Positions 1-42,972 of a DNA stretch of 64,000 bases are shown here, piece after piece. The notes under the pieces are model-generated. The model worked only from the letters and a program-made list of their open reading frames with translations, ran no database searches and was not told where the DNA came from. This DNA is from Roseburia sp. (GTDB lineage Bacteria; Bacteroidota; Bacteroidia; Bacteroidales; Bacteroidaceae): positions 1 to 64,000 of the forward strand of contig JAMPEL010000012.1 of the NCBI GenBank assembly GCA_023665185.1. Reading direction: 5' to 3'. The first letter of the stretch is position 1, and every line of letters begins with the position of its first letter. The position numbers and the translations under genes are program-made.

Positions 1-410
1 TCTTTTTTCGGGTTCAAAATCCATTTTTGTTTTTCGGGGCATGGAAAAGGCGGCTCTCGTCTTTTTGAGGACGTGATTCGGAAAAATGCCCGATTTTGGG
101 CCGAAAAACGGGCTTTGAAAATTTTGTGCGCCTTGAAAATAAATTTTGTTCACCTTGCGAAAAAAATCAGTGTGCCTTGGAAATAAATTTTCAGCACCTT
201 GTAATTTTGGGTTTTACTGGACTTTTGGGTGGGAAAGGTGTGTTTTAAGGTGAATTTATATATCTTTTAGTCGGTTGGATTGTTCTATTTGTCTCCTTGA
301 ATTTTGAGGATTAGAAGTCGCCGTAGAATCGCGTTTTTGCAACCTCGGCGGAGTCCGGTTCATTTTGAGGCGATTCTACGGAAGCGGGGTTTAACATATC
401 AAATTGTCAG
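1..410 (+). repeat. Intergenic structured repeat, copy A (cut by window edge)
   Basis: This non-coding stretch is clearly related to two others in the window (about 17750-18240 and 42340-42870). Shared blocks in order are the opening CGGGTTCAAAATCCATTTTT, the GCGCCTTGAAAATAAATTTT unit, ATCTTTTAGTCGG, a hairpin on CCGTAGAATCGC, and TTTAACATATCAAATTG. The hairpin lies at 321-381 with 12-bp arms. The left end is outside the window. An open frame crosses the right part (304-738) but has no family resemblance and no ribosome site, so I treat the region as non-coding. Confidence 0.8.
321..381. repeat. Hairpin of repeat copy A
   Basis: CCGTAGAATCGC (321-332) is the exact inverse of GCGATTCTACGG (370-381), with a loop of about 37 bases that holds TGCAACCTCGGCG and GTTCATTTTGAG. 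The same arms and the same loop words occur in copy C (42781-42848), and a weaker form occurs in copy B (18143-18203). Confidence 0.85.
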
Positions 411-772
411 CGTTTTACATATTCTCACTAACATATTAACAAATATCACACAGATATATCCAACAGAATCCTCAGCAAACATCTGTCAAATACATCATAA
501 GAGCCAAGTTCAGACTTTGTGTGGTGGAAGTGGCTTTCGACAGAACTCCTATCATATTAACAGAACCACGAAACTATTTACACCAAGCCTTCTGGCAAGT
601 CAGAATGTTAGCCCCATACAAAAAAATGCGGTTCAGATTACTTTTCTTTCCGAAACCAGCATTAAGAATCTTTTATTCGGTATTTTTGGAATAACAAGCC
701 GTAAAAATCACAAAGTTCACTTGCCGGCATTCAAGTAAATTTGCAGCAGAAAAATCAAAATCCAGAACAATT
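411..772. other. Intergenic region with operon leader
   Basis: No gene is supported here. The stretch joins repeat copy A to the redox operon. A Bacteroidota -7 element, TAAATTTG, lies at 736-743. No TTG stands about 20 bp upstream, so the -33 element is weak or absent. The short leader then carries an A-rich sequence before the ATG at 773. Confidence 0.5.
736..743 (+). promoter_or_regulatory. Promoter -7 element for the redox operon
   Basis: TAAATTTGC matches the Bacteroidota -7 consensus TAnnTTTG and sits about 30 bases before the ATG of the flavodoxin-esterase gene. I see no clear -33 TTTG at the usual distance, which could mean an activator is needed. Confidence 0.5.
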
Positions 773-2338
773 ATGAAAACAAAGCAATTCATCTTTTTAC
801 TTCTTGCGCTGTTGACCTTTGCATCATGCAGCGCAGATGAGCCAGAAATGCCAGAACAGCCTCAACCCGCACAACCGGAGGAAGGCAGCGGCTCAAATTA
901 TTTTTCCGGAAAGAAAGTGTTGATAGCTTATTTTTCATGGGGCGGCACAACCAAACGCATGGCGGAGCAGATTCAGGCTGTCACCGGTGGCGACCTATTT
1001 GAGATTGAGCCTGTCACCCCCTATCCCACCTCTTACACTCCATGCACTGAGGTTGCTTTGGAAGAACGCGACAACAATGCTCGTCCTGCAATAAAAGGCA
1101 GAGTGGCAAACTGGGATGAATACGATGTAGTTTTTCTTGGCAGTCCGGTGTGGTGGCATACCGCCCCGATGATTCTCCACACTTTTGCCGAAAGCTATGT
1201 TCTCGAAGGAAAAACCGTTGTGCCGTTCTGTACATTTGCCTCCACATATCGTGACGAGACTTTGCAGGCTATCATCGACATGACACAGGATGCCAATCAT
1301 CTTGACGGACTCGGACTCAACGGTTCTATCAACGAAAGCCAAATCAGAACTTGGATTGACTTAATCAATGAGCAATGGGGAAATCTCAACTCTGACAGCA
1401 CCACTGCCGCTCCAATGGAAGGAAAGGTGGAGCTGTGGCAGAAAGGCAACATACCCGGATTCAGGGAAAACATAAGCAACTCCGATGGTCCCGATTTCAT
1501 GCCAAACATGCTGGTATACACCGTGCCTGAGAACATACAGCCCAAAGGTGCGGTCATGATTTGCCCAGGTGGTGTCTTCGCTTTCCGCAGTATGCAGAAC
1601 GAAGGCTATGACATTGCTGATATGCTTGTGCCTATGGGCTATCAATGCTTTATTGTCAACTACCGCATCAATCCTTATTCGATGCAGGCCAGTGCCACAG
1701 ACTTGCAACGGGCTATCCGCTATGTAAAGGCTCATGCCGACGACTATCGTATCAATGCCGAGAACATTGCGCTTGTAGGCTTTTCTGCCGGAGGCATATT
1801 GAACGGTGAGGTTCTTCTCAACTGGCGGAATCTTACCAACGGCACCGCGCTCGATGCCTCATACCGTCCCGACGAACTTGACAAGATGCCCGTATCCGCT
1901 TGCGCTGTCGGCATGATTTATTCATTCTATGGTCGCTTAAGTGTGTCTATGAACAATGTGGAAACTCTCCGTGCCGCCAACCTTCCTCCCGCCTTCTATT
2001 GCTGGGGCACACGCGATGGTTTTGCCGGACAATTCACACAAAACTCCAATGCAGTGAAAGAAGCCGGAGTGAGAGTGGAAACCAAAGTGCTTGACGGATA
2101 CCCTCACGGATACGGAAGTGGAGGAAACGCTTCTGTATGGGGCAAGGACTTCGATGCATTTCTTACACCCATTATGCAGAACAACTCCTCCGCAGTCAAT
2201 GAAGTCAGCCGGGACATGACAGAGAACAATATCACAACATACTATGACCTGAACGGACGCATTGTTGCTCCCGAAACAGTCTCTACGGGAATTTACATTG
2301 TGAAATCAGGAAACAAAACGACTAAAGTGCTCAAATAA
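773..2338 (+). CDS. Lipoprotein: flavodoxin domain fused to alpha/beta-hydrolase
   Basis: A 521-residue lipoprotein. Residues 1-18 are a type II signal peptide with the lipobox ending at Cys19; the following S-A-D-E resembles the acidic surface-export signal of Bacteroidota lipoproteins (inference). Residues about 47-200 form a flavodoxin-like domain with an FMN phosphate loop (S55-WGGTT). Residues about 225-480 are an esterase-type alpha/beta-hydrolase: Ser338 lies in GFSAG, and Asp415 and His445 (YPHGYG) are the likely partners. The last 35 residues (YYDLNGRIV...GIYIVKSG) resemble a secretion-tail domain. It is the first gene of a run of same-strand reductases, with 6 bp to the next gene. 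Placing an FMN domain outside the cytoplasm and joined to an esterase is unusual. The natural substrate cannot be read from the sequence. Confidence 0.85.
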   Translation: MKTKQFIFLLLALLTFASCSADEPEMPEQPQPAQPEEGSGSNYFSGKKVLIAYFSWGGTTKRMAEQIQAVTGGDLFEIEPVTPYPTSYTPCTEVALEERDNNARPAIKGRVANWDEYDVVFLGSPVWWHTAPMILHTFAESYVLEGKTVVPFCTFASTYRDETLQAIIDMTQDANHLDGLGLNGSINESQIRTWIDLINEQWGNLNSDSTTAAPMEGKVELWQKGNIPGFRENISNSDGPDFMPNMLVYTVPENIQPKGAVMICPGGVFAFRSMQNEGYDIADMLVPMGYQCFIVNYRINPYSMQASATDLQRAIRYVKAHADDYRINAENIALVGFSAGGILNGEVLLNWRNLTNGTALDASYRPDELDKMPVSACAVGMIYSFYGRLSVSMNNVETLRAANLPPAFYCWGTRDGFAGQFTQNSNAVKEAGVRVETKVLDGYPHGYGSGGNASVWGKDFDAFLTPIMQNNSSAVNEVSRDMTENNITTYYDLNGRIVAPETVSTGIYIVKSGNKTTKVLK

Positions 2339-2344
2339 AATCAA

Positions 2345-3352
2345 ATGACAGAAAGAAGATTAAGCAATCTGACGGTCTCACCGATTGGTCTCGGCTGTAT
2401 GGGAATGAGCCATGCTTATGGTTTACCCGCAGACAAGAAAGAGATGAAGACCCTCCTTGCCAATGCGGTGGAAATGGGCTATACCTTGTTTGACACCGCT
2501 GAGGTTTATGGAACAGACTGCAATCCCCACGAAAATGAAGAACTCATTGGCGAGGCACTGAAGCCTTACCGCGACAAGGTGGTGATTACAACAAAGTTCG
2601 GACTGACTTTTGACAAATCGCACGAACCGGGACCATACCCGCTGAGACCAAACTCCAACCCCCACACAATACGCAGAGCTGTGGAGGGTTCTCTCCGACG
2701 TTTGCAGACCGACCATATCGACCTGTATCTTCAGCATCGTATTGACCCGGTTGTCGAACCGGAAACTGTTGCCGAAACCATGTCGGAGCTGATTAAGGAA
2801 GGCAAGATTCTCCACTGGGGCATCTCTGAAACAACAGCCAGCTATCTGCGCCGCGCCCACACTGTGTGTCATGTCACAGCAATACAAAACCGGTATTCGA
2901 TGATGGCACGATGGCATGAGGAGATTTTCCCCACTATCGAAGAGCTGAATGTGGGCTTCATAGCTTTCTCTCCGCTTGCCAACGGTCTGCTGTCGGGTTT
3001 CTATACAGCCGACTCGAAGTTCAATCCGCAAAACGATTATCGTGCCGCAATGCCGCAGTTCAGCCGCAAGAGCTTTGAGGAGAATAAAATGCTGCTCGGA
3101 CTTATCCGCAAGATTGCCGATGAGAATCATGCCACACCATCACAGATTTCATTGGCTTGGATGCTCTGTAAGAAACCTTATATCGTGCCTATCCCGGGCA
3201 CCCGTCACCTCTGTCGCCTGAAAGAGAACATCGGAGCGACTGACATAACCCTTTCATCCGAAGATGTGGAGGCTATAGACCGCCAACTTAACAGCACACC
3301 AATGAGTGAGGTTTTTGGCGGCTCAAAAATTGTCGAATCTCAAAAAACATAA
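2345..3352 (+). CDS. Aldo/keto reductase
   Basis: A 335-residue cytoplasmic NAD(P)H-dependent aldehyde/ketone reductase. The TIM-barrel family tetrad is visible: Asp50 and Tyr55 (FDTAEVYG), Lys84 (ITTKFG) and His131 (YLQHRID). The C-terminal PIPGTRHLCRLKENIGA is the usual cofactor-binding segment. Length and motifs fit the plant-auxin-induced/YajO-like branch. It starts 6 bp after the flavodoxin-esterase gene and ends 4 bp before the next reductase, so the genes are surely co-transcribed. The substrate is unknown; the company of YqhD- and DkgA-like enzymes suggests reactive carbonyl compounds. Confidence 0.92.
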   Translation: MTERRLSNLTVSPIGLGCMGMSHAYGLPADKKEMKTLLANAVEMGYTLFDTAEVYGTDCNPHENEELIGEALKPYRDKVVITTKFGLTFDKSHEPGPYPLRPNSNPHTIRRAVEGSLRRLQTDHIDLYLQHRIDPVVEPETVAETMSELIKEGKILHWGISETTASYLRRAHTVCHVTAIQNRYSMMARWHEEIFPTIEELNVGFIAFSPLANGLLSGFYTADSKFNPQNDYRAAMPQFSRKSFEENKMLLGLIRKIADENHATPSQISLAWMLCKKPYIVPIPGTRHLCRLKENIGATDITLSSEDVEAIDRQLNSTPMSEVFGGSKIVESQKT

Positions 3353-3356
3353 TGTC

Positions 3357-4286
3357 ATGATAAAAAAAATAATATTCGGACTGGCTCTATGCTTTGCTGC
3401 ATTTATAGCAAAAGCCCAGTCACAAGTTCCTTATACAGAACTCAATAACGGACAGAAGATGCCTCGTTTCGGTATCGGAACATTCAACGTGCCCAACGAC
3501 AGCATTATGGAAGATGCCATATCGTTTGCCTTGAGACAGGGTTATCGCCATATCGACACAGCCCATGCCTATCGTATTGAACGAGGAGTAGGCAAAGGCA
3601 TAAAGCAGAGCGGTGTGCCTCGTGAAGAAATCTGGTTGACCAGCAAAATATGGCCGACAGAATATGGTGAGGGTAAAACAGCCATAGCGATAGACGAAAT
3701 GCTTGAACGTCTTGGAGTGGATTATATCGACCTGCTTTATGTTCATCAGCCCATTGGAGATTGGCGCGGTGCATGGCGCGATATGGAAAAAGCAGTGGAA
3801 GCAGGAAAAGTGCGCGCACTTGGTATCAGCAATTTTGATGCCGCAGACTCCCTGTACAATGCTGTAATCGAGTTTGCAAGAATCAAGCCTGCCGTTTTCC
3901 AGATTGAATGCCATCCGTATGCCCAGCGTCTTGAATGGCGCAAACGCGCTGCCGCAAACAATATTCAGGTAGAATGTTGGTTTCCACTTGGCGGAGCGAT
4001 GAGTAAGGGAGCGTTGTTCAAAGACCCAGTGATAATGAGAATTGCAGAAGCGCATGGCAAGACCCCGGCACAAATTATCCTCCGATGGCACATACAGGAA
4101 GGACTTTCCGCTATTCCCGGCGCGACCAATCACGACTACATCACCGAGAATATCAGTATCTTCGACTTTGAGCTTACAACAGAAGAAATGGAAGCTATGC
4201 GTTCACTCAATAAAGAGCAACGTTTCTTCAATATGTCGCTTGAGGACAAGCAGAAATATCTGTTGAACATGAAAATAGAATATTGA
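3357..4286 (+). CDS. Exported aldo/keto reductase
   Basis: A 309-residue aldo/keto reductase. I place the start at 3357 because the protein then opens with a normal signal peptide (MIKKIIFGLALCFAAFIAKA, cut before QS); a longer reading from 3306 would overlap the previous gene by 47 bp. The catalytic tetrad is complete: Asp67 and Tyr72 (HIDTAHAY), Lys97 (TSKIW) and His130 (YVHQP). It resembles the DkgA-type branch. An NAD(P)H-dependent enzyme sent to the periplasm is odd because nicotinamide cofactors are not freely available there. Either the signal is not processed or the enzyme uses another arrangement. It is third in the operon. Confidence 0.88.
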   Translation: MIKKIIFGLALCFAAFIAKAQSQVPYTELNNGQKMPRFGIGTFNVPNDSIMEDAISFALRQGYRHIDTAHAYRIERGVGKGIKQSGVPREEIWLTSKIWPTEYGEGKTAIAIDEMLERLGVDYIDLLYVHQPIGDWRGAWRDMEKAVEAGKVRALGISNFDAADSLYNAVIEFARIKPAVFQIECHPYAQRLEWRKRAAANNIQVECWFPLGGAMSKGALFKDPVIMRIAEAHGKTPAQIILRWHIQEGLSAIPGATNHDYITENISIFDFELTTEEMEAMRSLNKEQRFFNMSLEDKQKYLLNMKIEY

Positions 4287-4287
4287 T

Positions 4288-5004
4288 ATGATGCCAAAAG
4301 TTATATGCCATATAATGAGTTCGGTTGACGGACGACTTCTTCCCAGACGATGGACTGCACCGTTTGACGGGACAAATCCGTCGGAGCTATTTAAAGAATA
4401 TGCGGCTATAGGTCAGAACCTCTGCACTGACGCATGGATGTTCGGTAAAGCCACTACTAAGGAAGTTTTCCCGAATTTATTCAAATCAAAAGGTGAGCCA
4501 ACAGAAGAAACCGGAAAAGTACATATCGGTAACAGAAACTCCACAAGGCTGTTCATCACAATTGACCCCGATGCGGATATACTCTTCACTTCCGACACAT
4601 TCCGAGGCGACAACATCCTTACCATTTTAGGAGCTAATGCCACAACCGACTATCTCGCAGCACTTGAAGAAAAGGGTATCTCGTACATTGTTATGGAGCG
4701 TGTCGATAACCTTAAACTTGCAATGGAACTTATCGCAAAGCATTTCGGTGTGAAATGTATCTCCTTGCAAGGTGGTGGCATCATAGACGGAGCCATGCTC
4801 GCACAAGGATTGCTTAGTGAGTTGAGCCTTGTGATATACCCTGGAATAGACGGACTTTCTACCATTCCTTCTATATTTGAGTATATCGGACAGGCGGAGG
4901 AAAAACCTGCTGAGGGTCAGGCATTACAACTTCTTTCAGTTGAGCAGAAGCCTCTTGGCATAGTATGGTTACATTATAAGTTTCACAAAAACAAACGGTT
5001 ATGA
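4288..5004 (+). CDS. RibD C-terminal domain (dihydrofolate-reductase-like) reductase
   Basis: A 238-residue protein of the RibD-C/DHFR-like fold. MSSVDGRLLP near the start and the later LQGGGIIDGAMLAQGLLSEL segment are the usual family marks. In riboflavin synthesis such domains reduce a ribosylamino-pyrimidine with NADPH, but the stand-alone copies are mostly of unknown substrate. No deaminase domain is attached and no riboflavin genes are near, so a role in general NADPH-linked reduction within this operon is more likely. It starts 1 bp after the preceding stop and overlaps the next start by 4 bp (ATGA), which indicates translational coupling. Confidence 0.85.
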   Translation: MMPKVICHIMSSVDGRLLPRRWTAPFDGTNPSELFKEYAAIGQNLCTDAWMFGKATTKEVFPNLFKSKGEPTEETGKVHIGNRNSTRLFITIDPDADILFTSDTFRGDNILTILGANATTDYLAALEEKGISYIVMERVDNLKLAMELIAKHFGVKCISLQGGGIIDGAMLAQGLLSELSLVIYPGIDGLSTIPSIFEYIGQAEEKPAEGQALQLLSVEQKPLGIVWLHYKFHKNKRL

Positions 5005-6155
5005 ACAGTTTTAATTATCAATATCCCGTAAAACAATATTTTGGCAAAGGATGTGCCGAAGATGCACTAAAGAAAGAAATGCCCGCAATGGGCAAAGTGG
5101 TAATGCTTGCATACGGCAGAGACTCGCTGAAACGCACAGGATTATACGATAAAATCCGTGGTTGGCTTGAAGAAGCTGGAAAGACGGTTGTTGATTTTGG
5201 AGGTATCATGCCAAATCCGACATATACCAAAGTTCAGGAGGGAGCTGAGATGGTACGCAAAGAAGGTGTAGAATTCATTCTCGCTATCGGCGGAGGTTCG
5301 GTAATCGACTGCTGCAAAATCATCTCCGCTCAGGCAAAGACAGATGAAGATGTATGGGACATGTTCTATAACGAGCATCGCTTCCCTACAGAATTCATAC
5401 CCATTGGAGCAGTCGTAACTGCGTCAGGTACAGGTGCAGAGCAAAATAACGGCGCGGTGATTACCCATGAAAGCAAGAACTTAAAACAGGCACTATTCGG
5501 AGCGTTCCACCGTTTCGCTGTGCTCGACAGCAACCTTACACTCACCCTCCCTATGACACAAGTTATCAGCGGTGCGTTTGATACACTGAGCCACTGCATG
5601 GAAACTTACATGGGACAGCCGTCTGACAACAACGTGTCGGACGAAATAAACGAAGCTATCATGCGCAATGTAATAAAGAATATACGTGCGTTGATGGCAA
5701 ATCCTGATAATGACTTTGCCCGCGGCGAATTGATGTGGGATTCCGCAGTGGCAGAGAACGGAATGTTGAAACTCGGCAAAGTTACCGACTTTCAGTGTCA
5801 TATGATTGAACATGCAATAGGAGCTTCTACTGATTGTAACCACGGTCAAGGACTTGCCGTGATACATCCGGCACTTTATCGTTGTTATCTGCCGGAAGGT
5901 GCATCAAAGCTGGCCCGTATGGCACGTCAGGTGTGGGGTGTTCAGGACAATGATGACATTTGTGCGGCAAACACAGGCATTGACATTCTTGAAGATTTTA
6001 TTCAGGAAATCGGTCTGCCTACCCGTTGGAGTCAAATGGGTATTACGGATGAAAAGGTACTGCGCAATTCCGCCGACACTTGTATTCTTACTCCCGGATG
6101 CTGTAAAAAGTTTACACGCGATGAAATTTTTGAGATTCTAAAAGGACAACTTTGA
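5001..6155 (+). CDS. Iron/zinc-containing alcohol dehydrogenase, YqhD-like
   Basis: A 384-residue group III metal-dependent alcohol dehydrogenase. The nucleotide-binding GGGSVIDCCK lies near residue 96. The metal ligands read directly from the sequence are Asp194, His198, His267 and His281, the same positions known for E. coli YqhD, an NADPH-dependent aldehyde reductase that clears short toxic aldehydes. Family members are also called butanol dehydrogenases. The next gene is a DkgA-like reductase, so the pair mirrors the E. coli yqhD-dkgA operon. It overlaps the RibD-like gene by 4 bp. Assignment to the family is firm; YqhD-type specificity is inferred. Confidence 0.92.
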   Translation: MNSFNYQYPVKQYFGKGCAEDALKKEMPAMGKVVMLAYGRDSLKRTGLYDKIRGWLEEAGKTVVDFGGIMPNPTYTKVQEGAEMVRKEGVEFILAIGGGSVIDCCKIISAQAKTDEDVWDMFYNEHRFPTEFIPIGAVVTASGTGAEQNNGAVITHESKNLKQALFGAFHRFAVLDSNLTLTLPMTQVISGAFDTLSHCMETYMGQPSDNNVSDEINEAIMRNVIKNIRALMANPDNDFARGELMWDSAVAENGMLKLGKVTDFQCHMIEHAIGASTDCNHGQGLAVIHPALYRCYLPEGASKLARMARQVWGVQDNDDICAANTGIDILEDFIQEIGLPTRWSQMGITDEKVLRNSADTCILTPGCCKKFTRDEIFEILKGQL

Positions 6156-6209
6156 AAAAACAAACAACAAATAAATTTGTTTTATCACAACAACAGGAAA
6201 AATCAGAAT

Positions 6210-7049
6210 ATGAAGACAGTAACTTTGAATAACGGGGTTGCGATGCCCCAAATTGGCTATGGAGTATATCAAGTTTCTCCGACAGAATGCGAGCGTTGCG
6301 TTTCGGACGCATTGAGTGTTGGGTATCGCATGATTGACACAGCTCAGGCTTATCATAATGAAGAAGGAGTTGGAGCAGCAGTCAAGAAGAGTGGCATTGC
6401 TCGCGACGAACTTTTCCTCGTGTCGAAAGTGTGGATTTCAAACTATGGCTATGAGAAAGCCAAAGCATCCATTGATGAGAGCCTGCGCAAACTTGGCACG
6501 GACTACATTGACCTTATGCTCCTCCACCAGCCATTTTGCGACCGCTACGGCGCCTACCGCGCTCTTGAAGCAGCATACAAAGAAGGCAAAGTCCGTGCAA
6601 TTGGTGTGAGTAACTTCTATCCCGACCATTTCATCGACCTTGCAAGCAATGTGGAAATTGTCCCAGCAATCAACCAAGTAGAGACTCATGTATTCAACCA
6701 ACAGGCAGAGGCTCAGGGATATATGAAGGAATTTGGCACTCATGTCATGGCATGGGCACCACTTGCCGAAGGGCGCAACAACTTCTTTTCCAACCCTATA
6801 CTTGAAGAAATAGGCAGAAAATATGGCAAGTCTGTGGCTCAAATTGCCCTCCGCTGGCTCATTCAGCGCGATGTCATCATCATACCTAAGTCAGTACATA
6901 TTGAGCGTATGAAGCAGAACATGGATATCTTCAACTTTGAACTGTCGAAGGAAGATATGAAAGCTATTGCGACACTCGACATAAGGAGCAGCCTGTTCTT
7001 TGACCATCATGCTCCCGAGATTACAAAAATGTTTATGGGATGGAGATAA
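6210..7049 (+). CDS. Aldo/keto reductase, DkgA-like (2,5-diketo-D-gluconate reductase type)
   Basis: A 279-residue cytoplasmic aldo/keto reductase. The start at 6210 is chosen because MKTVTLNNGVAMPQIGYG is the conserved family beginning; the upstream ATG at 6177 adds a poor, Asn-rich stretch. The tetrad is Asp43, Tyr48 (DTAQAY), Lys73 (VSKVW) and His106 (LLHQP). IIIPKSVHIERMKQN is the cofactor segment. It lies 54 bp after the YqhD-like gene; TAAATTTG in that gap could be a secondary promoter. It is the last intact gene of the operon. Confidence 0.92.
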   Translation: MKTVTLNNGVAMPQIGYGVYQVSPTECERCVSDALSVGYRMIDTAQAYHNEEGVGAAVKKSGIARDELFLVSKVWISNYGYEKAKASIDESLRKLGTDYIDLMLLHQPFCDRYGAYRALEAAYKEGKVRAIGVSNFYPDHFIDLASNVEIVPAINQVETHVFNQQAEAQGYMKEFGTHVMAWAPLAEGRNNFFSNPILEEIGRKYGKSVAQIALRWLIQRDVIIIPKSVHIERMKQNMDIFNFELSKEDMKAIATLDIRSSLFFDHHAPEITKMFMGWR

Positions 7050-7058
7050 GAATACATT

Positions 7059-7221
7059 ATGAGAGAGAATATATTGAGAACAATAAACTGGCGCGACACT
7101 GTAAAAAGGTTTTCCTGAATTCAATTGGCATACCGGATTGCGCTTCCCCGCAACCCCGGAACAAATAAAAAATTGGATAAAAAATAATCTCACACAAATA
7201 TTCAATCAAATACCCATATAA
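7059..7221 (+). pseudogene. Possible small gene remnant, frame broken
   Basis: An ATG at 7059 opens MRENILRTINWRDTVK and then stops at 7118. If one A is removed from the A5 tract at 7103-7107 the frame stays open to a TAA at 7219-7221, ending in ...EQIKNWIKNNL... and 53 residues long. The stop lies immediately before the operon terminator at 7222, which suggests true coding sequence. The NWRDTVKRF word recalls the start of some nitroreductases, but this is weak. It may be only chance. Confidence 0.25.
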
Positions 7222-7266
7222 AGAAAGTCAGTCATCAAGTAATTATTACCCGATGACTGACTTTCT
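7222..7266 (+). terminator. Terminator of the redox operon
   Basis: A 15-bp perfect stem (AGAAAGTCAGTCATC and its inverse) with a loop of about 15 bases, followed by TTCATTCTCTC. It stands between the plus-strand operon and the converging minus-strand rluA-family gene and could serve both. Confidence 0.8.
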
Positions 7267-7294
7267 TCATTCTCTCATATAACAGACTTACTCT

Positions 7295-8224: not shown

Positions 8225-8259
8225 AACTCTTTTCCTTTATATATTATAGAATCCAATTC

Positions 8260-9687: not shown

Positions 9688-9716
9688 TTATGAAAAATAA
9701 TTATTATAAATACGTA

Positions 9717-10682: not shown

Positions 10683-10712
10683 TGTGTCAATTCTTTTTAC
10701 ATTAGTATTTAG

Positions 10713-12214: not shown

Positions 12215-12258
12215 CAGCAGAAAAAAGAAATAACGAACAAATAAAATACAAGATTATT

Positions 12259-17498: not shown

Positions 17499-17640
17499 AA
17501 GTGTGTCAGAAGGAAGTTTCCATACCATACGCAAGTTTGTAACAAGGACAATCCAAAATGGAGCAAACCGCCTGAAAACATCTGATGCAGGATTTTGCAG
17601 ATAAAATACAAACAAAGAAAATTGACATTCTGTCAGTTGA

Positions 17641-17712
17641 AAAAAGGAGACGATTTTAACATTTCAGGCATTAGTCTGTGGTTTGAAATGCATACAAATC
17701 CGTCTCCTTTTA
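17641..17712 (+). terminator. Hairpin terminator after the ferredoxin gene
   Basis: AAAAGGAGACG (17642-17652) pairs with CGTCTCCTTTT (17701-17711). Inside the loop CATTTCA and TGAAATG form a second stem. The right arm ends in a T run. It lies about 150 bp after the ferredoxin stop. Confidence 0.65.
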
Positions 17713-17749
17713 CGCTAAGCATCAGATAATCAAATAGATACAATTTCAC

Positions 17750-18240
17750 CTAAAAAGGTATAGTTTTAGTTCAAAAACCAAGCGTTGAGAGTAAAATAGA
17801 ATATCTTGATAATCAACATATTACAGCAAAGCCCATCAAAAACCATCATTTTTTGCCGCCAAAATTAAAATCTGTTTGACGAGGCACAGAAAACCGCCCG
17901 TAAACATATATTAAGGATTGCCATAAAACATGCACGATTTTAGCCCGAAATACGGACGTTTCAAAACTCGTGCGCCTTGAAAATAAAATTGCAAGGTGAA
18001 CCGCAAAAAATTGGTTGGCGCACGAGTTTTATTTTCACAGTACTCTAATTTCGGCAAAAACACGCTCAAATGTAAATATATGTATCTTTATTGGGTCAAA
18101 ATTAGCATGTTTTTACAAATCGCTTTCGACAACAAAAAACCGCTGTAGAATCGCTCAAATGCAGCTAAAGTAAGGTCTGGTTCATTTTAAGGCGATTCTA
18201 CGAGGTCGGACTTTAACATATCAAATTGACAGAAAACACG
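17750..18240 (+). repeat. Intergenic structured repeat, copy B (most diverged)
   Basis: This is related to copies A (1-410) and C (42340-42870) in the same orientation. Shared parts are AACCATCATTTTT near 17840, TGCGCCTTGAAAATAAA near 17970, TATCTTTATTGGGTC, the hairpin arms CTGTAGAATCGC and GCGATTCTACG, and TTTAACATATCAAATTGACAG at the end. The copy is more degraded than A and C, but the order of blocks is kept. Confidence 0.75.
18143..18203. repeat. Hairpin of repeat copy B
   Basis: CTGTAGAATCGC (18143-18154) faces GCGATTCTACGAG (18192-18204); the inner 11 bases pair exactly. The loop keeps CAAATGCA and GTTCATTTT, which themselves extend the stem (AAATG with CATTT). Confidence 0.75.
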
Positions 18241-18377
18241 CATCTTCACAAAACAAATAACAGACAATTGCTGTTTTTCATGTAAATCCTGCAAAATCCA
18301 TATCAAAAGGAGACTACAACATACACCCACATATTTTTACAGAAAGCAGAAACAAAAAATCATGCCAAAAGGAAATA

Positions 18378-18392
18378 TTTTCCAATGGAAAG
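18378..18392. promoter_or_regulatory. Operator candidate O1 upstream of the sulfur-transfer operon
   Basis: TTTTCCAATGGAAAG is a near-perfect palindrome (TTTCC and GGAAA around AAT). An almost identical copy lies 50 bp downstream at 18429-18442, so the two are about five helical turns apart and bracket the -7 element. The second gene of the operon encodes a MarR regulator, whose family binds such palindromes as a dimer. Confidence 0.6.
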
Positions 18393-18415
18393 TTTTTCAA
18401 ATCAGAAATTAGTTA

Positions 18416-18423
18416 TACATTTG
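18416..18423 (+). promoter_or_regulatory. Promoter -7 element of the sulfur-transfer operon
   Basis: TACATTTGC matches TAnnTTTG and would start transcription near 18430, inside the second palindrome. The -33 region (about 18393) is GTTTTTC rather than TTTG and touches the first palindrome. A repressor bound to both sites would cover the promoter. Confidence 0.6.
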
Positions 18424-18428
18424 CATAA

Positions 18429-18442
18429 TTTCCAATGGAAAG
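18429..18442. promoter_or_regulatory. Operator candidate O2 upstream of the sulfur-transfer operon
   Basis: TTTCCAATGGAAAG repeats the O1 palindrome and lies at the predicted transcription start, 33 bp before the ATG at 18475. Confidence 0.6.
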
Positions 18443-18474
18443 TATTTTTTTCAATACAAATTAAGAAGACATTT

Positions 18475-34049: not shown

Positions 34050-34103
34050 TTTTTTGACGGACAAAGAAATGTTTATAACACAACAATAATAAAAGTCAAT
34101 CGT

Positions 34104-35315: not shown

Positions 35316-35340
35316 TTGAGTATAAACCACAATAAGTTAC

Positions 35341-35386
35341 AAAAAGACCGTTTTGTTGGAAGAAAACAACAAAACGGTCTTTTTTT
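35341..35386 (+). terminator. Terminator after gyrA-TPR
   Basis: An 18-bp stem (AAAAAGACCGTTTTGTTG and its inverse) with an eight-base loop, followed by a T7 run: a textbook intrinsic terminator. Confidence 0.92.
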
Positions 35387-35403
35387 GTTTCAAGAATAAT
35401 ATC

Positions 35404-35411
35404 TAACTTTG
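35404..35411 (+). promoter_or_regulatory. Promoter -7 element of the second TPR gene
   Basis: TAACTTTGC fits the -7 consensus and lies just after the gyrA-TPR terminator, about 57 bases before the ATG at 35468. Confidence 0.5.
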
Positions 35412-35467
35412 CATAACTTATCGTTTTCGATGTATTCATGTGACAAAAAACAGACAATTATATAATT

Positions 35468-36721
35468 ATGCAAAGCAGAGTATTAATATTAGCCGCCTTA
35501 ATATCTTTTCTCTCATCTGTCCGCGCGCAAGAAGCAGACGGATACAAGCGCAAGGCTGTCATGAAAGAAATCAATTCAAACATAAAGTCTGAGAATTATC
35601 AGAAGGCAGACGAGCTGGTAAGAAATGCCATAGAAAAATATGAGGAAGCTAAAACAGATGCTGAGTATTATAATCTGGAAGTAAACATACAATATCAGCT
35701 GACACTTGCCGAAAACAGAAAGATGTATCTGAAATCCAATCCTGACACCACAAAATATTTCGGACACATCCTCAACATGTATCGGTACGGAATGCAATGC
35801 GACAGCTTAGACGCACTGCCAAATGAAAAAGGGGACGTCAAATATTCATACAGGGACAACATCTCCTCAAAGATGAAATCCCTCAGAAACAATCTTTGCA
35901 GTGCCGGCAAATACCACTACAAGAAAAAGAATTACAAAGAAGCATACGATTTTCTTGACATGTATATGAGCACAGCTCATTCTCCCCTTGTCAAAGAATC
36001 CAAGAACAATCAGAACACAGCAACTTCCAATAGCGACAGTGTCAAGTTGTCACAATTGGCTGTTCTGTCCGCATATGCTTCAAAACGATTTGACAAGGCA
36101 ATAAAATACATATCCACAGCCCTGCTTGATTCCGGGATGCGCGCACAGATATACGAAGTGGGAAGTACTGCCTATAGCGAACTTGGAGACACCGTCAAGA
36201 TGATTGACATGCTGTCCAAAGGATTCACGCATTATCCGAAGAAAGAATATTTCTACACTTTTCTCCTTAAATATTACAATGACAATGCCCAATATGGGAA
36301 AGCGATAGAGATAGCAAGAAAGGCAGTCCGATACAATCCGGAAAATCAGAAATGCTGGTATATAAAAGGAAAGATAGAGCGTTGTCTGAATATTCAAGAC
36401 TCTGCCATAGCGTCTTTCAGCCGCGCCATTGAGCTAAAGCCTGATGATGCGGAAACATATTCAAGTATCGGCAACATATACATGGAACAAGCGAACAACA
36501 AATACAAGAGTCTGAATATCCCGATAAGCAATCCGCATTATGCAGAAGCCAAACAAGAGATAAACTCGCTCTATAGTAAAGCAGAGGAATATTATGAGCA
36601 AGCCAGAAAGTATGACGAAAAGAACACGGAGCTATGGTTTCCATACTTGCGGGAAATATACTACAAGCTAAATAAAGGAAAGGAACTGAAGGCACTTGAA
36701 ATGTACGAGACTTCCAAATAG
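35468..36721 (+). CDS. Exported TPR-repeat protein
   Basis: A 417-residue protein with a signal peptide (MQSRVLILAALISFLSSVRA, cut before QE). It is rich in Lys and Tyr and is helical throughout; the clearest TPR units are near residues 275-345 (YGKAIEIARKAVRYNPENQK, then DSAIASFSRAIELKPDDAET). It is similar in build to the preceding TPR protein but is transcribed from its own promoter behind a terminator. The function is unknown. Confidence 0.8.
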   Translation: MQSRVLILAALISFLSSVRAQEADGYKRKAVMKEINSNIKSENYQKADELVRNAIEKYEEAKTDAEYYNLEVNIQYQLTLAENRKMYLKSNPDTTKYFGHILNMYRYGMQCDSLDALPNEKGDVKYSYRDNISSKMKSLRNNLCSAGKYHYKKKNYKEAYDFLDMYMSTAHSPLVKESKNNQNTATSNSDSVKLSQLAVLSAYASKRFDKAIKYISTALLDSGMRAQIYEVGSTAYSELGDTVKMIDMLSKGFTHYPKKEYFYTFLLKYYNDNAQYGKAIEIARKAVRYNPENQKCWYIKGKIERCLNIQDSAIASFSRAIELKPDDAETYSSIGNIYMEQANNKYKSLNIPISNPHYAEAKQEINSLYSKAEEYYEQARKYDEKNTELWFPYLREIYYKLNKGKELKALEMYETSK

Positions 36722-36750
36722 AGAATCATCATAAAATAAGATCCAACAAT

Positions 36751-36791
36751 AAAGCAGCCGACTATTCAATAAGGAATCAGTCGGCTGCTTT
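36751..36791 (+). terminator. Terminator between the TPR gene and panD
   Basis: A 13-bp perfect stem (AAAGCAGCCGACT and its inverse) with a 15-base loop, flanked by A and T residues. It may serve both converging units. Confidence 0.85.
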
Positions 36792-36886
36792 ACTTTCTAC
36801 ACCTATTATATTCTCCTAATACTATATATTCCGATTTTTGAGACTATCAACAAAGGGACTCCATTCTGCAAATTTGGTTTCCGGAA

Positions 36887-37240
36887 TTACCTCACCACTT
36901 TATTTGTCTCTGAATCGGGGAACACAACTTTGGGAGTAAATGTCTTGGCCTCCTCAAAGTCCATCAACGCATAGGATATGATGATGACAATGTCCCCAAC
37001 CTGAACCTTGCGTGCTGCCGCACCATTCAGACAAATACATCCGGAACCTCTTTCTCCCTTGATAATATATGTCTCAAAACGCTCACCGTTGTTATTGTCC
37101 ACAATCTGCACTTTCTCGCCTGCAATCAAGTTTGCGGCATCCATCAAGTCCTCGTCTATAGTTATGCTGCCCATATAGTTAAGATTAGCCTCCGTAACCT
37201 TCACACAATGCAGCTTAGACTTCATTACCTCTATCATCAT
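36887..37240 (-). CDS. panD: Aspartate 1-decarboxylase
   Basis: A pyruvoyl enzyme of 117 residues that makes beta-alanine for pantothenate. It is cut by itself at Gly24-Ser25 (NYMGSITID), where Ser25 becomes the pyruvoyl group. I place the start at 37240 because [20 protein letters not shown] aligns with the known beginning of the family; the longer frame from 37285 would run into panC. It lies 16 bp downstream of panC, so both substrates of pantothenate synthetase chemistry are under one transcript. Confidence 0.95.
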
Positions 37241-37256
37241 GAGCTTGCTGTAATTA

Positions 37257-38111
37257 TTATAACGCTTTATACTTGATATTGTCAATCAGACGAACCGGTA
37301 TCGCCCCACAGAATACAGTGATACATCCTACAATATAATCGGAATCTTCCCATGCAGAAAGGCTCTCCAAAGAATTGCCGTCCACAATCTCATAATACTG
37401 CACCTCAAGTCCGTCCACAGCATTAATGCAGTCTACAACCCATTGCTTTGTCTCAGAAAGGGTATGCGACTTGGCATATTCCACACTTTCAAAAAGAGTC
37501 TTCGATATATTGAGAGCTATATGTCTTTCATTCTCAGACAACAGCATATTCCGGCTGCTAAGAGCAAGTCCGTCCTTCTCGCGGACAATCGGACACGGAC
37601 ATATCTCCAGAGGATATTTCTTGTCGGCAACCATAGCCTTGATAACAGCCACTTGCTGGAAATCCTTCTCGCCAAAATATGCGCGATCAGGCTCTACAAA
37701 CAAAAATAATTTGCTTACAATTTGACAGACACCATTGAAATGTCCCGGACGGAAAGCACCTTCCATCACAGTGTCTGTCGGAGGATAGCTAAATGCACGC
37801 GTATCCGGCTCCGGATAAACTTCTTCCACAGACGGCGCAAATACAAGTGCCGCGCCCATAGCCTCAAGCAACTTGCAGTCGGCTTCAAGAGTACGGGGAT
37901 ACTTCTCCAAATCGTTTTTGTCATTAAATTGAGTAGGGTTGACAAAAACACTTACGACGGTAACGTCATTTTCCTTAACGCTTCTGCCTACGAGAGAAGC
38001 ATGTCCTTCGTGGAGCGCACCCATAGTAGGTACAAGTCCTACGGTTTTGTTGTCAGCTCTGAAAACTTTCAGTTTGTCTTTCAGTTCCTTAACTGTACTA
38101 ACGATTTCCAT
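37257..38111 (-). CDS. panC: Pantothenate synthetase
   Basis: A 284-residue ATP-dependent ligase joining pantoate and beta-alanine. [13 protein letters not shown] contains the HxGH nucleotide-binding motif, [16 protein letters not shown] is the central substrate region, and LSSRNMLLS is the KMSKS-like loop. The length is standard. It precedes panD in a panC-panD operon. Confidence 0.96.
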
Positions 38112-38365
38112 TTCTTTTTTACTTTTGAAACTTGCGATTAGTTTTCTTATCTTAGCTTCGTTCCTTCAATTTCAGAGTGCAAAGTAACGTATTATTTGGG
38201 AGACTATAAAACTTTTCAGTCAAAAAAAATCACCACTGACATCAATGTGCATTTCTATTTGAATTCTTCAAAAAGAACGCATTATATCACAACGCCGTGA
38301 AATTTTTTTTCGTAAATCTATGGAATTCATATTGTAATGGTATGTTTTAGATATTTATAGTGTTA

Positions 38366-40893
38366 CTAATTATTCTTCTTATAATTCTCTACTTGCTCCA
38401 GAACTTTTTGGAAGACCTCTTCATCCCATTGAGGAGGATAACCCTCTTTGTAAAGAAGATATGTAAGCTGGCTGGCAAGTTTGCTTTTTAGGTTGTCGTT
38501 ATTTAGCCAATCGGCATAAACTGCGGTATCATCAATCAGAGTCTTGATTTTCTTTGCCAACTCAATACAACACTCATCCGCATACTCAAAACCATGTTTG
38601 TCCCGCACCTCGACAAGTACATCGAAGAAAGCTTTCTCCTCGAAAGTGATACCCAAAACCTTGAATTTCTCGCTATCAGCTTTAAGCTCTTTCAGAATGT
38701 TCATCAGTTTGTTCGATAACCCATTGATTTTGTATGAAACAATGTCACATACATCATTCACCACATTCTGTGTCACTTCATTGGTGAATACCAACTTGTC
38801 CCTTGTATTATAGGCATCTATTGTATCTTCAAGCATTTTCTGGAAATGTTCAGCTTGTATCTTGTTTGTCTGGCTATATGCTCTGATTGCTTTGGCTACG
38901 AGTTTGCAGAGAATCTGGAACTTAGTGAATGGCATCTTTATATTTTCCACCTCTTTAGCAAATGAGTCGCTGAAAATATTTTCCTCAACACCTTCATTCA
39001 TTACTCGTTCCACACCACTTGCAAGAATTGCTTCCTGAACCATCTGTTCCACATGCCTGTTCATGCTTTCTGTGTCGTGATCCGTGGCAGTCATTTTGTT
39101 CACGTATGAGCAGATACCCATGAAGCATTGACTCCATGCCACCTCTTCTTCTGTCAGAATACCGGCAGGGTTACAGATATTGTAAGCAGAACGCAGGCGT
39201 TTGACATGTTCCTTGAAAAGTTTGAGAAAAGAAACCTCACCTTTTCGTTCCACACTGTTGGCAAGGATATATTCAGCCGCTTCCTGAATGAACTGAAGCC
39301 GGGCAAGGTCATTGTTCCCGAAAAAACGGTCAAATACCAGTCCTGCCAATCGCTCTTGCAAAAGTTGCAGTTCGTTCTGCAATACTTCATGTGCAACCTC
39401 CAAATCTTCCTGTGGCCCGGCTTCGCCACCATATTTTTTCATGGCTTTTTTCATCTCCTCGCGAATGCCTATGTAGTCGATAATAAAACCACACTCTTTT
39501 GTGCCGAATTTACGGTTTACACGCGAAATAGTCTGAATAAGCGTATGTTTAGATAGCGGTTTGTCATTATATAGCATCGTCAGGCAAGGCACATCGAATC
39601 CCGTAATCCACATATCTACATTGATAGAGATATGGAAATTCGATTTTTCCGATTTGAACTCAGAATCAAGGAATTTACGATGGTCTTTATCTCCAAGCAG
39701 ATTGTAAAGTTCCTTTTCGTCGTCCTTATCTCTGGTCATAACCATATTGACAAATGCGATGTCATTTAGCTTATTCTTTTCGTCCGCTGTCAATACAAGT
39801 TCATTCAATGCTTTCTTTTTCTCGAACCATTTGGGCTGCATCTCTCGCATGATTTTATACAACCTAAATGCTATCTTACGGTCTGCGCAAGTAATCATAG
39901 CCTTTTGCAAACGGTCTGTTGTTTCAGTCCGACACTTGTAATCTTCGATAATGTCTTTTGCAACACGGCGCAGGACATCTTCATCACCGATAATCACCTC
40001 CATGCTTGACATGGCGACCTTGCTCTTGGCAATATCCTCCGGCGTTGCACCCTCATCCGCACATAGACGATAATACTCTTCTACTTTCTCTGCCTGTTCT
40101 TTATTGAGAAACACACGAGCTAATCGAGGGTCATATTTAATTGGGACAGTGATGTCGTCATCCTCCGACTCCTTCATCGTATATTGGTCTACCACCTTCC
40201 CAAATACATATATAGTTTCGTCAATGGGAGTTCCGGTAAAACCTACGTATGTAGCATTCGGCAACGCATCCCGCAAGTATTTAGCAAATCCGTATGTAAT
40301 TTTCGCCCCTATCTTATCGACTTCTCCTTCGGTCTGTATAGATAGTTTCGATCCGATATTGTTCTGAGAACGATGAGCTTCATCACTTAGGCAAATGACA
40401 TTGGAGCGTTCTGTCAACAATCCTGTGGTTTCTGCAAATTTCTGGATAGTCGTGATATAGACACCTCCGGTTTTACGTGTGCTCATTTCTTCTGCAAGTT
40501 CTTTCCTTGTCTCAAAGACTTTCACTGCTTCGTCTTCAAGATACTGCTTCGAACGACAGAACAGTTTTCCGCTTTGTGTTTCCAAATCTTCCCGATCTAC
40601 TATGATGAGAATCGTAGGGCTACCCAGTTGCTTTCTGCATCGCAAAGCCAGTTGGCGCGCAAGGAACAGCATGGTATAAGTTTTCCCACACCCGGTGGCT
40701 CCGAAATATGTACCACCCTTACCATCACCTCCGACAGAACGCAAATGGTTCAGGATATGGTCTCGCAGCTTGCGCGTAGCAAAGAACTGAGGATAGCGGC
40801 ATACGATTTCAGTCGTGTCATCTTCTTTTGTCGGATCAGGGAAATAGACATAGTCCCGTAATATCTCTAATATGCGTTCCGGCGAAAGTGCTC
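38366..40893 (-). pseudogene. hsdR: Type I restriction endonuclease HsdR, N-terminus missing
   Basis: About 840 residues of a restriction subunit that is normally about 1000 or more. The reading frame enters from a junction near 40893 as GALSPERILEILRDYVYFPD without any start codon; a possible TTG at 40744 gives a 792-residue protein. Motor motifs are GATGCGKTYT (Walker A) and LSDEAHRSQ (DEAH box), and the C-terminal helical domain is complete. The N-terminal PD-(D/E)xK nuclease domain is missing, so DNA cutting is not expected. The sequence upstream belongs to a different gene (YhcG-like), which indicates a deletion. Confidence 0.85.
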
Positions 40894-41781
40894 CGCGAAT
40901 AGCACACCTATAGTGGGATTATCCGAAGGCTCTTTCATAAGGTCATCGAACATACGCACATACATGTCCAATTGTCCCACATCGGCATGTGTTACCTTAT
41001 GGGTCTTCAGTTCAAACAGAACAAACCTTTTCATTTTGAAATTGTAAAAAACCAAGTCAATGAAGAAATCATCGGTTTCCGTCACGATGTGTTTTTGTCT
41101 TTCTACAAAAGCAAATCCACGTCCTAACTCCATAATGAATTTCTCCAGATTGTCAATCAATGCCTGTTCCAAGTCACTCTCCGAGTACTTTGTGTCACGC
41201 TTGAAATTGAGGAACTCCGCCACCACCGGACTTTTTATGTACTCCTTCGGGTCATTCCCATTGAGGTTTTCAATCACAGGCAATACCTCGCCATCTCTTT
41301 TCGCTGCACATAGCCTGCCATAATATTGAATGGAGATGTTCCGGTCAAGCGTGCGGATACTCCACATTTCGCGGGAGGCCTCTTCTGCATACTACCGTCT
41401 GGCATCCGGATGCGGCACAGACATTATGCGCCGGAAGTGAGTCCATGTGAGATTTGGCACTCGCGAGTGCCAAATCAGCAAATCATTAAAATTCAAGTAG
41501 AACTGCCTATAATCCCGTAATCGCCGATCGGAGTAGTTTGTACCAAATTCGATTGACAACCGCTCCGCAATCAACTTAATCAACCGGGAGCCATATTGCG
41601 CACGGGCTTCTCCATGCTGTTCTTCCTCCACTATCCGCCGCCCGATATGCCAATAGGTAAGTACCGCGACCTGATTGACTGCCGCGTATGCTTGTTTCCG
41701 ATTTTGTTCTATGATTCCCCGAATGTCATCAATGAGTTTATCGGTTGTTATATCACAATGTTGCAACTTATTCTTTTCCAT
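40867..41781 (-). pseudogene. YhcG-like PD-(D/E)xK nuclease (DUF1016), amber codon and truncated end
   Basis: The first part (from 41781, MEKNKLQHCDITTDKLIDDI) is the DUF1016 N-terminal domain. It ends in WTHFRRIMSVPHPDARR and a TAG at 41394-41392. The frame continues without shift as YAEEASREMWSIRTLDRNIS into the C-terminal nuclease domain, with FFIDLVFYNF and VLFELKTHK as metal ligands. Homologues have Trp at the stop position (DARxWY), so a single TGG to TAG change explains it. The end (NPTIGVLFAEHFRRNAY) is not homologous to the family and shows fusion to hsdR sequence. Its start overlaps the hsdM stop by 14 bp. Confidence 0.85.
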
Positions 41782-42211
41782 ACCCTAAAACCTTAAAAGC
41801 GTTTACGAGTTCCGTTTCGTTTGCATCCCATCTTTTCTTCAACGCATCAAATTTATCACTCATCTCGGAAAGAGCAGTCTTATAGTCCATTTCCGTATCT
41901 CGATCTACAAACTCAATGTACCTGGAGGGTACGAGGGAATATCCTTTTTTTTGAATTTCATAATAATGCGCAGCATAGTATAATTCCGGCTCAGCATACT
42001 CAACAATATGTTCGGTTTGCCAGTTGAAATATATTCGACGCACACAGTCTATTTCCGTTTCCGAAAAGCGGACATATTTCTTCTCGTATATATTACTGTT
42101 CCAAGTCCGCAAGTCGATGAACAGAATCTCACCGGTACGGTCACGAAGTTGCCTTCCATGCCACGGCCCGCCTTTCTTGTTGTTGTTCAAAATCCAAAGA
42201 GTGACGGATAA
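41768..42211 (-). pseudogene. hsdM: Type I DNA methyltransferase HsdM, C-terminal fragment
   Basis: About 148 codons remain. They begin after a stop at 42214 with LSVTLWILNNNKKGG, which matches the LPxTLWFxNK region after the NPPF catalytic domain, and run through GEILFIDLRTWN and the HIVEYAEPELYYAAHYYEIQ tail to the natural stop. SAM-binding and catalytic motifs are lost. No hsdS specificity gene is seen. The fragment can make no working methylase. Confidence 0.8.
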
Positions 42212-42593
42212 TTACCGAATAGCAGTATGCAGACAATAAATACTGACATTATGTCACTTAAAGCAGAAAACGCGTTTTTAACATTTCCAGCTTAAACTGA
42301 GGCCGGATTGGCACTTGGTCCTCAAAGCCAAATCGATAAATTACTGATAATCAAGCAGATACTATTTTACAAAAAAGACGCGGTTTTTGATCAAAAACTA
42401 AGGGTTGAGCACAAAATAGGATGTATTGATTATCAGCGAGTTATGAGATCTCATTGTCAAAATCATCATTTTTCGGGTTCAAAATCCATTTTTGTTTTTC
42501 AGAGCACCGAAAAGCCGCTCATGGTCTTTTTGAGGGAACGACTTGGAAAAATGCCCAAATTTGACCCCAAAATAGGGCTTGGAAAATTTCGTT

Positions 42594-42619
42594 CACCTTG
42601 AAAATAAATTTTCAAGGTG
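42594..42619. repeat. Internal 26-bp palindrome of repeat copy C
   Basis: CACCTTGAAAAT and its exact inverse are separated by AA. In copy B the outer CCTTG/CAAGG pairing is kept (near 17971-17996), and copy A keeps the CACCTTG and GCGCCTTG words without the exact palindrome. Confidence 0.8.
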
Positions 42620-42780
42620 AAGCGAATAAAATTGGTGCGCCTTGAAATAAAATTTACTTCACCTTGTAATTTTAGATTTTAGCGGACTTTTTGGGGAATA
42701 AAGCCCAATCAGGCTTGAAATTGTTATCTTTTAGTCGGGCGAACTATTCTATTTTCTCATCCCGATTTTGAATCTCAAAA

Positions 42781-42848
42781 ACCTCCGTAGAATCGCCCAA
42801 ATGCAACCTCGGCGAGGCGAAGTTCATTTTGAGCGATTCTACGGAGGT
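42781..42848. repeat. Terminal hairpin of repeat copy C
   Basis: ACCTCCGTAGAATCGC (42781-42796) and its exact 16-base inverse (42833-42848) enclose 36 bases. The loop extends the stem (AAATG with CATTT) and contains a smaller hairpin CCTCGGCGAGG. It is the strongest hairpin in the window that is not a terminator. Confidence 0.85.
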
Positions 42849-42972
42849 CGAATTTTAACATCTCAAGAAAAGCATAAAGATATATAAATTTAGAATTTAA
42901 CAGCATTTTGTCAGCAAACAGAATAAAAGCAATTTCCTAAAAGCTCAAAGTATCACACTTTACGCATACGAT

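Follow-up and report, generated by a model that had tools for sequence, protein, structure and literature searches.

An evenly spaced family of intergenic elements with a 22-bp array

We found that the genome of a Roseburia sp. (assembly GCA_023665185.1; GTDB family Bacteroidaceae; here G000) carries a large family of non-coding elements which are evenly spaced, share a fixed architecture with a central array of sites phased at 22 bp, and have homologues in two congeneric genomes, G001 and G002. Because their spacing is regular in two species and positions are shared between these, a chromosome-organising site is the best fit among the candidate functions that the original prediction had listed for three repeats of this family. 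Judging from sequence comparison, we give a probability of roughly 45% to the reading that the elements are genus-specific, host-maintained sites which act at the DNA level and are bound by a protein array; we infer that a protein binds the sites, that the two co-evolve and that the elements play an architectural part.

Copies in the window and in the genome

The window, that is, the whole stretch of 64,000 nucleotides analysed here (contig JAMPEL010000012.1, positions 1 to 64,000 of the forward strand), contains three stretches which, as predicted, are homologous, non-coding and all on the + strand, as judged by a profile HMM whose underlying alignment included copies B and C but not A. Copy A, of the main subfamily, occupies 1-410 (nhmmer, 432.7 bits, model positions 227-636) and lacks its 5' part, since the first base of the window is also the first of the contig. 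Copy B, a full-length member of the second subfamily, lies at 17621-18234 (449.3 bits, model 3-638), and copy C, a divergent but full-length main-subfamily copy, at 42242-42866 (532.6 bits, model 3-628). The limits given earlier for A were correct, while B and C begin about 130 and about 100 bp before the starts stated there. The profile HMM also placed a fourth copy just beyond the window, on the - strand at contig positions 65305-65597.

The family extends far beyond these copies, since searches of the 3.38-Mb assembly located 161 copies or pieces, a count that includes partial copies and four close pairs, each made up of pieces at a single place. Long gaps and the starts of two contigs, when searched, contributed nine of the 161, and a search of the 32-42 kb gap intervals in C115, C49 and C71 gave no copy. 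Family members were present on most contigs examined, and none of 152 HMM matches fell inside a gene predicted by a purpose-written simple gene caller (7 of 61 aligned rows had been removed from the HMM alignment beforehand as opposite-arm or partial matches). A protein-coding element was rejected, since the longest stop-free stretch was mostly 70-100 codons and there was no period-3 signal. In pattern searches, a 19-base pattern had 184 strand matches in the genome versus 1 for its reversed control, some of the 184 being the opposite hairpin arm of a copy already matched, and a left-end motif pattern had 137 exact strand matches versus 0, whereas a pattern from the left-middle of copy B (16 strand matches versus 3 in the control) was too degenerate for use. 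Full-length copies numbered 104, namely 86 of the main subfamily (about 634 bp) and 18 of the second (611 bp).

Architecture of the element

The element, about 640 bp in G000 and roughly 700-900 bp in G002, has fixed ends, TTGACATNATGTCA ... TTTTAACA on the left and, on the right, an inverted repeat followed by TTTAACAT. Pattern matching placed the left-end motif of copy B, GACATTNTGTCA ... TTTTAACA, at 17624-17661 and that of copy C at 42245-42283, both on the + strand. The 3' inverted repeat, also on the + strand, was found by sequence match at 321-381 in copy A (CCGTAGAATCGC / GCGATTCTACGG) and at 18143-18203 in copy B, and by an inverted-repeat search at 42781-42848 in copy C, where its 31-nt arms are 84% complementary. 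CCGTAGAATCGC is present as an inverted pair in all three copies; as a lone 12-mer it is within chance in the window (6 found with at most 2 mismatches versus 3.7 expected), but the family as a whole exceeds chance, as the HMM scores of the three copies and the genome-wide counts of the 19-base pattern show.

In the central array, four to five short sites recur with a period of 22 bp, close to two turns of the helix, and are joined by A/T-rich linkers. Reading of the sequence placed CCTTG in copy A at 131, 153, 175 and 197 (131-201, + strand), a strict 22-bp spacing with A/T-rich DNA between the sites, and in copy C at 42596, 42640 and 42662 in 22-bp register (42596-42666, + strand), where an inverted CAAGG at 42613 replaces the second site. 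Four CCTTG exactly 22 bp apart were present in 76 of the 86 aligned main copies, none of which had two CCTTG at any of eight other periods, and it is for the main subfamily, not the second, that the regular array is established in G000. The same phase was found in both congeners with a different site sequence in each species, CCTTG in G000 being replaced by CAGTGCGCTG in G002 and CACCGCGGTG in G001. With one mismatch allowed, five sites at 22 bp were present in 8 of 18 G002 copies and three in 9 of 18; in G001, CACCGCGGTG-type sites recurred at 22 bp, with five in copy L307, and one copy had a 20-bp step. Loop-less 10-bp palindromes occur in G001 and G002, and conservation over the whole element showed no helical periodicity of 10-11 bp.

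Plasmid iterons, too, are short sites with a period of about 22 bp adjoining A/T-rich DNA, and such phasing is what we observed in the main subfamily, G001 and G002. The present arrays differ from iterons in being chromosomal and dispersed in more than 100 modules, and the Rep_3 initiator (PF01051) had no match in G000, G001 or G002.

Spacing along the chromosome

The 81 within-contig gaps in G000 averaged 15.9 kb with a CV of 0.50, whereas the null had a mean CV of 0.92 and the lowest of 2000 simulations reached 0.66; no gap was 0.7-5 kb long, against a null mean of 19.9 and minimum of 8. Spacing was even more regular in G002, where 49 elements in 652 kb gave 27 gaps with a CV of 0.34, the shortest being 6.05 kb, and 0 of 2000 simulations was as regular. 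The distribution along the chromosome is non-random in both genomes, as would be expected of chromosome-organising sites, although spacing alone could also arise from target immunity. matS and parS are short single sites confined to part of the chromosome and read by a DNA-binding protein; the elements resemble them in being dispersed and, as we propose, in having a protein reader, but they are long modules that contain an array, and they occur on most of the contigs examined.

Relatives in other genomes

The families of the two congeneric genomes, detected with the profile HMM, are homologous but highly diverged; the G002 and G001 stretches used were not random, having been picked by contig number and some for holding matches. 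Of the genes next to G000 elements, 36 had an orthologue-like match in the sampled G002 DNA; 20 of these matches lay within 1.5 kb of a G002 element (background 0.30, p 0.0013) and 17 had it on the corresponding side (background 0.15, p 5e-6), the element orientation being the same in 9 of these 17 shared positions. Genes far from elements were near a G002 element in 8 of 27 cases, so that on proximity alone the contrast between adjacent and far genes is weak (Fisher p 0.046). For two G000 loci, the genes on either side of the element adjoin each other in G002, separated by only about 205 and 175 bp that hold no element, and elements have therefore been gained and lost; at both of these empty loci a G002 element sits on the far side of one flanking gene.

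Searches beyond the genus revealed no copy of the family. The order-wide search of 393 genomes, which like one further search is a weak negative because two candidates per genome were scored, gave long matches in this genome only, and the 23-52 bp matches in 11 other genomes of the order (E 3e-5 to 1e-3) were taken as chance. Exact patterns, which diverged relatives would escape, had no match in genome_contigs or viral_contigs, nor was there any blastn match in plasmid and phage collections. In a G6PD search the relatives reached 62% at best, with Bacteroidales at the top. The left motif occurs once each in G478 and G578, which belong to a different genus within the family, and the remainder of the element is missing there; it stands between a divergent gene and an RNA that we take to be rnpB, some 600-700 bp before the latter. 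Literature searches yielded no paper with a title or abstract that describes such a family.

Evolution within the species

The rate, LD and covariation tests were based on the 86 main full-length copies, the 18 second-subfamily copies being left out. Constraint was uneven, with 37% of alignment columns at a relative rate of 0.04 and 16% at 3.4, and 82% of the tree length was in terminal branches. Each copy carried 99.5 substitutions and 0.73 deletions relative to the consensus, insertions not being counted, and the changes were mostly transitions (ratio 1.54). Recombination switch points within copies indicate that copies recombine with one another; no near-identical full pair was found, the best reaching 95.7% and itself showing a switch. 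Two other processes were rejected: local homogenisation, since identity was 77.8% within 30 kb versus 77.5% on different contigs, and single-base-targeted hypermutation, since changes from A, C and T were 5-7% each and from G 10%, with no A-only pattern. The proposal that structure rather than exact sequence is kept does not describe copies within the species, whose arms are conserved in sequence without covariation above the simulated null, but suits the comparison between species, where the sites change and the 22-bp phase stays.

Alternative explanations

The alternative that survives best, although we consider it unlikely, is the non-autonomous mobile element of the original prediction, for which a hypothetical transposase with target immunity would block insertion near an existing copy and so set a minimum spacing, the 22-bp array representing transposase sites. 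Tn7 and Mu have arrays of about 22-bp transposase sites together with target immunity, and the observed minimum spacing, the loci occupied in G000 and empty in G002, the lack of copies within genes and the existence of partial copies all agree with this explanation. However, comparison of offsets around both ends with shuffled left/right pairs, in the 79 of 104 full-length copies having both anchors and 150 bp of flank, revealed only weak 3-mer excesses and no target duplication above the shuffled pairs. Moreover, inspection by eye suggests only about 6 bp of terminal inversion, the array is central instead of terminal, and the constraint on terminal branches, the rarity of deletions and the site-specific constraint are unlike those of dead insertions. 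The best full pair being recombinant and no closer than 95.7%, the sharing of positions between two species above background, and the lack of blastn matches in the plasmid and phage sets and of exact-pattern matches in viral contigs also argue against mobility. Y1_Tnp (PF01797), the only transposase family sought, had no match in G000 or G001 and one below-cut-off match in G002; in a control search, 5 of 14 known genomes gave a match.

REP/BIME units are short palindromes, from which the present element differs in being several hundred bp long at a spacing of about 14-16 kb, with no Y1_Tnp match in G000 or G001. Porphyromonas gingivalis, in which the BrickBuilt MITEs occur, belongs to the Bacteroidales. 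According to PMC2817692, REP/BIME with RAYT have more than 100 extragenic copies, species-specific sequence and palindromic parts, as our family does, and also a suggested role in chromosome organisation and protein co-evolution, which are here only proposed. PMC4596501 describes 19 BrickBuilt elements in one strain, which have terminal inverted repeats and, in three of the four copies studied there, target duplications; these resemble our elements in being non-coding, intergenic and several hundred bp long, whereas here 161 were located, with no target duplication and with even spacing.

It appears improbable that the elements serve as recombination or DNA-exchange sites (a homologous recombination hot spot, uptake or packaging), with their even distribution serving gene exchange. 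Copies do recombine with one another, and in two cases the sequences on either side of a single G002 element map next to two separate G000 elements, but recombination may merely follow from repeated sequence, and the exact pattern had no match in viral contigs.

We regard a many-copy structured non-coding RNA gene, another function considered in the original prediction, as more doubtful still, even though the element has several inverted repeats and its 3' hairpin gives a consensus folding. A G-test with APC on the 86 copies against 20 tree-simulated alignments found no pair covarying at E<=1 and two at E<=10 versus ten expected, so no pair in the arms exceeded the null, which itself has more linkage than the real data, such that weak covariation could be missed. 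Rfam 15 at gathering scores had 0 matches in the window and 0 in family loci L277, L356, L034 and L023, the loop-less palindromes of G001 and G002 resemble protein sites, and orientation to neighbouring genes is not conserved across species.

Least probable is a portable regulatory module whose left-end regulator site acts outwards on the neighbouring gene, a role hinted at by an orientation bias that counts against the organising-site reading, the gene at the left end pointing outwards in 66 of 100 cases, and by the left-end motif standing alone in G478 and G578, since the right neighbour is unbiased (70 to 68), the median distance from the left end to such an outward-reading gene is about 350 bp, orientation is not conserved between species, and the even spacing is left unexplained.

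Implications of a possible chromosome-organising site

If the elements are chromosome-organising sites, a sequence-specific protein would bind the sites of one array cooperatively, roughly on one face of the helix, and the array complexes would partition the chromosome into segments of about 14-16 kb, or tether it at such intervals, as loops, supercoil domains or anchor points. As a more specific and tentative form of this proposal, the chromosome may be divided by about two hundred evenly spaced boundaries, each a module whose 22-bp-phased array binds protein cooperatively. Recombination would keep the sites alike within a species, whereas sister species would have sites newly specified, so that array and binder would co-evolve like centromeric repeats.

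Bursts of mobile elements do not usually produce dispersed repeats that are so evenly spaced and conserved in architecture. If the organising-site reading is true, the genus would provide domain marks in a bacterial chromosome that are directly visible and defined by sequence, and its three species with different site sequences would form a test system for how bacterial domains are set, how a binder and very many sites change together, and what effects concerted evolution has in bacteria. Even if the elements are mobile, a family this large with a built-in minimum spacing would represent an unusual target immunity shaping the chromosome.

Anatomy of the element

The original prediction held that three stretches of the window are related, and the profile HMM confirmed them as copies of a single non-coding element, at 1-410 (copy A, truncated by the contig start), 17621-18234 (copy B) and 42242-42866 (copy C), all on the forward strand; the stretches themselves were real, but B and C had been given starts that were too late, as the HMM put both earlier. 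Among 79 copies of the source genome with both anchors and 150 bp of flank, full-length size was 634 bp in 43 and 632-636 bp in 68, the rest being mostly ~611 or ~622 bp. The left end consists of TTGACATNATGTCA, ~18 mostly variable bases and TTTTAACATTTC. Next comes a stretch that is hypervariable in sequence but nearly constant in length. An A/T-rich part carrying two TTGATAATCA boxes precedes the central array, and the right end is formed by an inverted repeat, CCGTAGAATCGC ... GCGATTCTACGG, then TTTAACATATCAAATTGTCAG. The HMM also found partial copies retaining the right end without the left part (C71:75136-75686, C126:50318-50572 and C60:39242-39456), two of which start at model position 381.

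The central array contains four CCTTG boxes exactly 22 bp apart in 76/86 main-subfamily copies, and no two boxes in these 86 were spaced at any of eight other periods checked. In the second subfamily, to which copy B belongs, related sequence occupies the array position, the regular 22-bp CCTTG array of the source genome being established for main copies. In the congener G002 the sites are 10-bp palindrome-like sequences, CAGCGCGCTG and CAGTGCGCTG, at 22 bp, with five sites in 8/18 copies and three in 9/18 when one mismatch was allowed. Of five loci inspected in the other congener, G001, three have CACCGCGGTG-type sites at 22 bp; one step at locus L356 measures 20 bp. Array phase is kept between species while site sequence changes.

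Distribution in the source genome

Further copies were searched for in the source genome, and merging pattern, HMM and gap searches located 161 copies or pieces, probably a lower bound since the HMM read only ~1 Mb. Pattern search gave 184 strand matches versus 1 control match, DNA search at least 40 long copies, and the HMM revealed that many contigs end within copies. None of 152 HMM matches lay inside genes predicted with our own simple gene caller. Where full copies were flanked by two genes (n=87), the pair was divergent in 30, tandem in 44 and convergent in 13 cases; the right neighbour was transcribed away from the element in 70/138 and the left in 66/100, a 66:34 bias that would suit a rival, gene-regulatory role but does not alter our confidence in the preferred reading.

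Within-contig gaps (n=81) averaged 15.9 kb with a CV of 0.50. Four, below 0.7 kb, each separate pieces at a single place, and none measured 0.7-5 kb, versus a mean of 19.9 (minimum 8) in 2000 runs of random placement on the same contigs. Treating long gaps as a prediction of missed copies, we took 20 stretches. C104 yielded two copies and C38 three as well as an end fragment; further copies came from C11 and C49, from C82 (with an internal deletion) and from C60 (truncated at the beginning of its contig). Gap intervals of 42 kb on C115, 35 kb on C49 and 32 kb on C71 held no copy, and neither did the final 25 kb of sequence taken from C38. Gaps in G002 (n=27) ranged from 6.0 to 25.2 kb, with a CV of 0.34.

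Divergence and recombination

Main copies on different contigs share a mean pairwise identity of 77.5% (best pair 95.7%), and their tree is star-like, terminal branches making up 82% of its length. Each copy differs from the consensus by on average 99.5 substitutions and only 0.73 deletions, and site rates are very uneven, many near-invariant columns standing beside strongly polymorphic ones. Linkage (r2) was 0.14 at 1 bp and had dropped to 0.014 at distances above 240 bp, against a chance level of 0.012. The C41 and C42 copies are 36-84% alike in the left half and 96-100% in the right, and their right flanks are identical over 180 bp; C66 and C126 have the reverse pattern. Identical runs of 150 bp or longer occur in five copy pairs, versus a column-shuffled maximum of 86. 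Linkage decay, half-switching identity and long identical runs together indicate that the copies recombine. No covariation among main copies exceeded a simulated null, a conservative test because this null held more linkage than the recombining data.

Relatives and shared positions

Copy C as DNA query matched none of 60 relatives, and the profile HMM picked up a family in G002, missed by that search, with the same order of parts. G001 also carries the family, mainly at contig ends; no copy occurred in the 200 kb analysed from each of two genomes of other genera, G007 and G011. A G002 copy, searched against 301 genomes of the taxonomic family, matched only G001 and G002; it missed the source genome, and this search is therefore blind to distant versions. 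Given these searches, the element is common to the three genomes of the genus examined, and a diverged form may exist beyond it. Copies are more alike within species than between.

A G002 element also lies near 20/36 genes adjacent to elements in the source genome (30% expected), on the same side in 17/36 (15% expected), and near 8/27 genes far from such elements. Orientation agreed in 9/17, and one intergenic region (C49_51464) holds oppositely oriented elements in the two species. At two source loci lacking an element in G002, the G002 element lies beyond one of the two flanking genes.

Neighbouring repeats and motifs

A second dispersed, REP-like repeat, CTCCTCCGTCACTTCGTGACACCTCCCCTAACTTAGGGGAGG (unit ~170 bp), occurs in the right flank of source copies, for example at L038 and neighbouring loci, and in G001 (L066, L312); its first 10 bases lie no more than 150 bp from the right end of 42/79 copies and equally close to the left end of 2/79. 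A conserved CAGTATGCGGACAAG-like left extension lies upstream of 34/79 copies, and the C66/C126 left-flank identity extends ~140-150 bp outwards. In the window, two TTTCCAATGGAAA copies 50 bp apart (18375-18447), perhaps a regulator site, lie just upstream of a multidomain gene (Pyr_redox_2, rhodanese, TusA, DsrE). A G002 CRISPR array (L067 2350-3754; repeats ATTTCAATTCCATAAGGTACAATTAAAAG) adjoins a phosphogluconolactonase gene. The left-end motif GACATTTTGTCAGTT...TTTTAACA stands alone in two genomes of another genus of the same taxonomic family, G578 (L255 1501-1535) and G478 (L256 1501-1535), between a divergent gene and an RNA that we take to be rnpB-like; it may represent a regulator site that predates the element.

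Nature of the element

A mobile element with target immunity would account for both spacing and turnover, but it explains less well the constraint on copies and the absence of target duplication. Intergenic, evenly spaced, position-sharing and length-constrained, and with a phased site array, the modules resemble DNA sites on which selection acts and which recombination homogenises; we infer that the element may have an architectural role in the chromosome.
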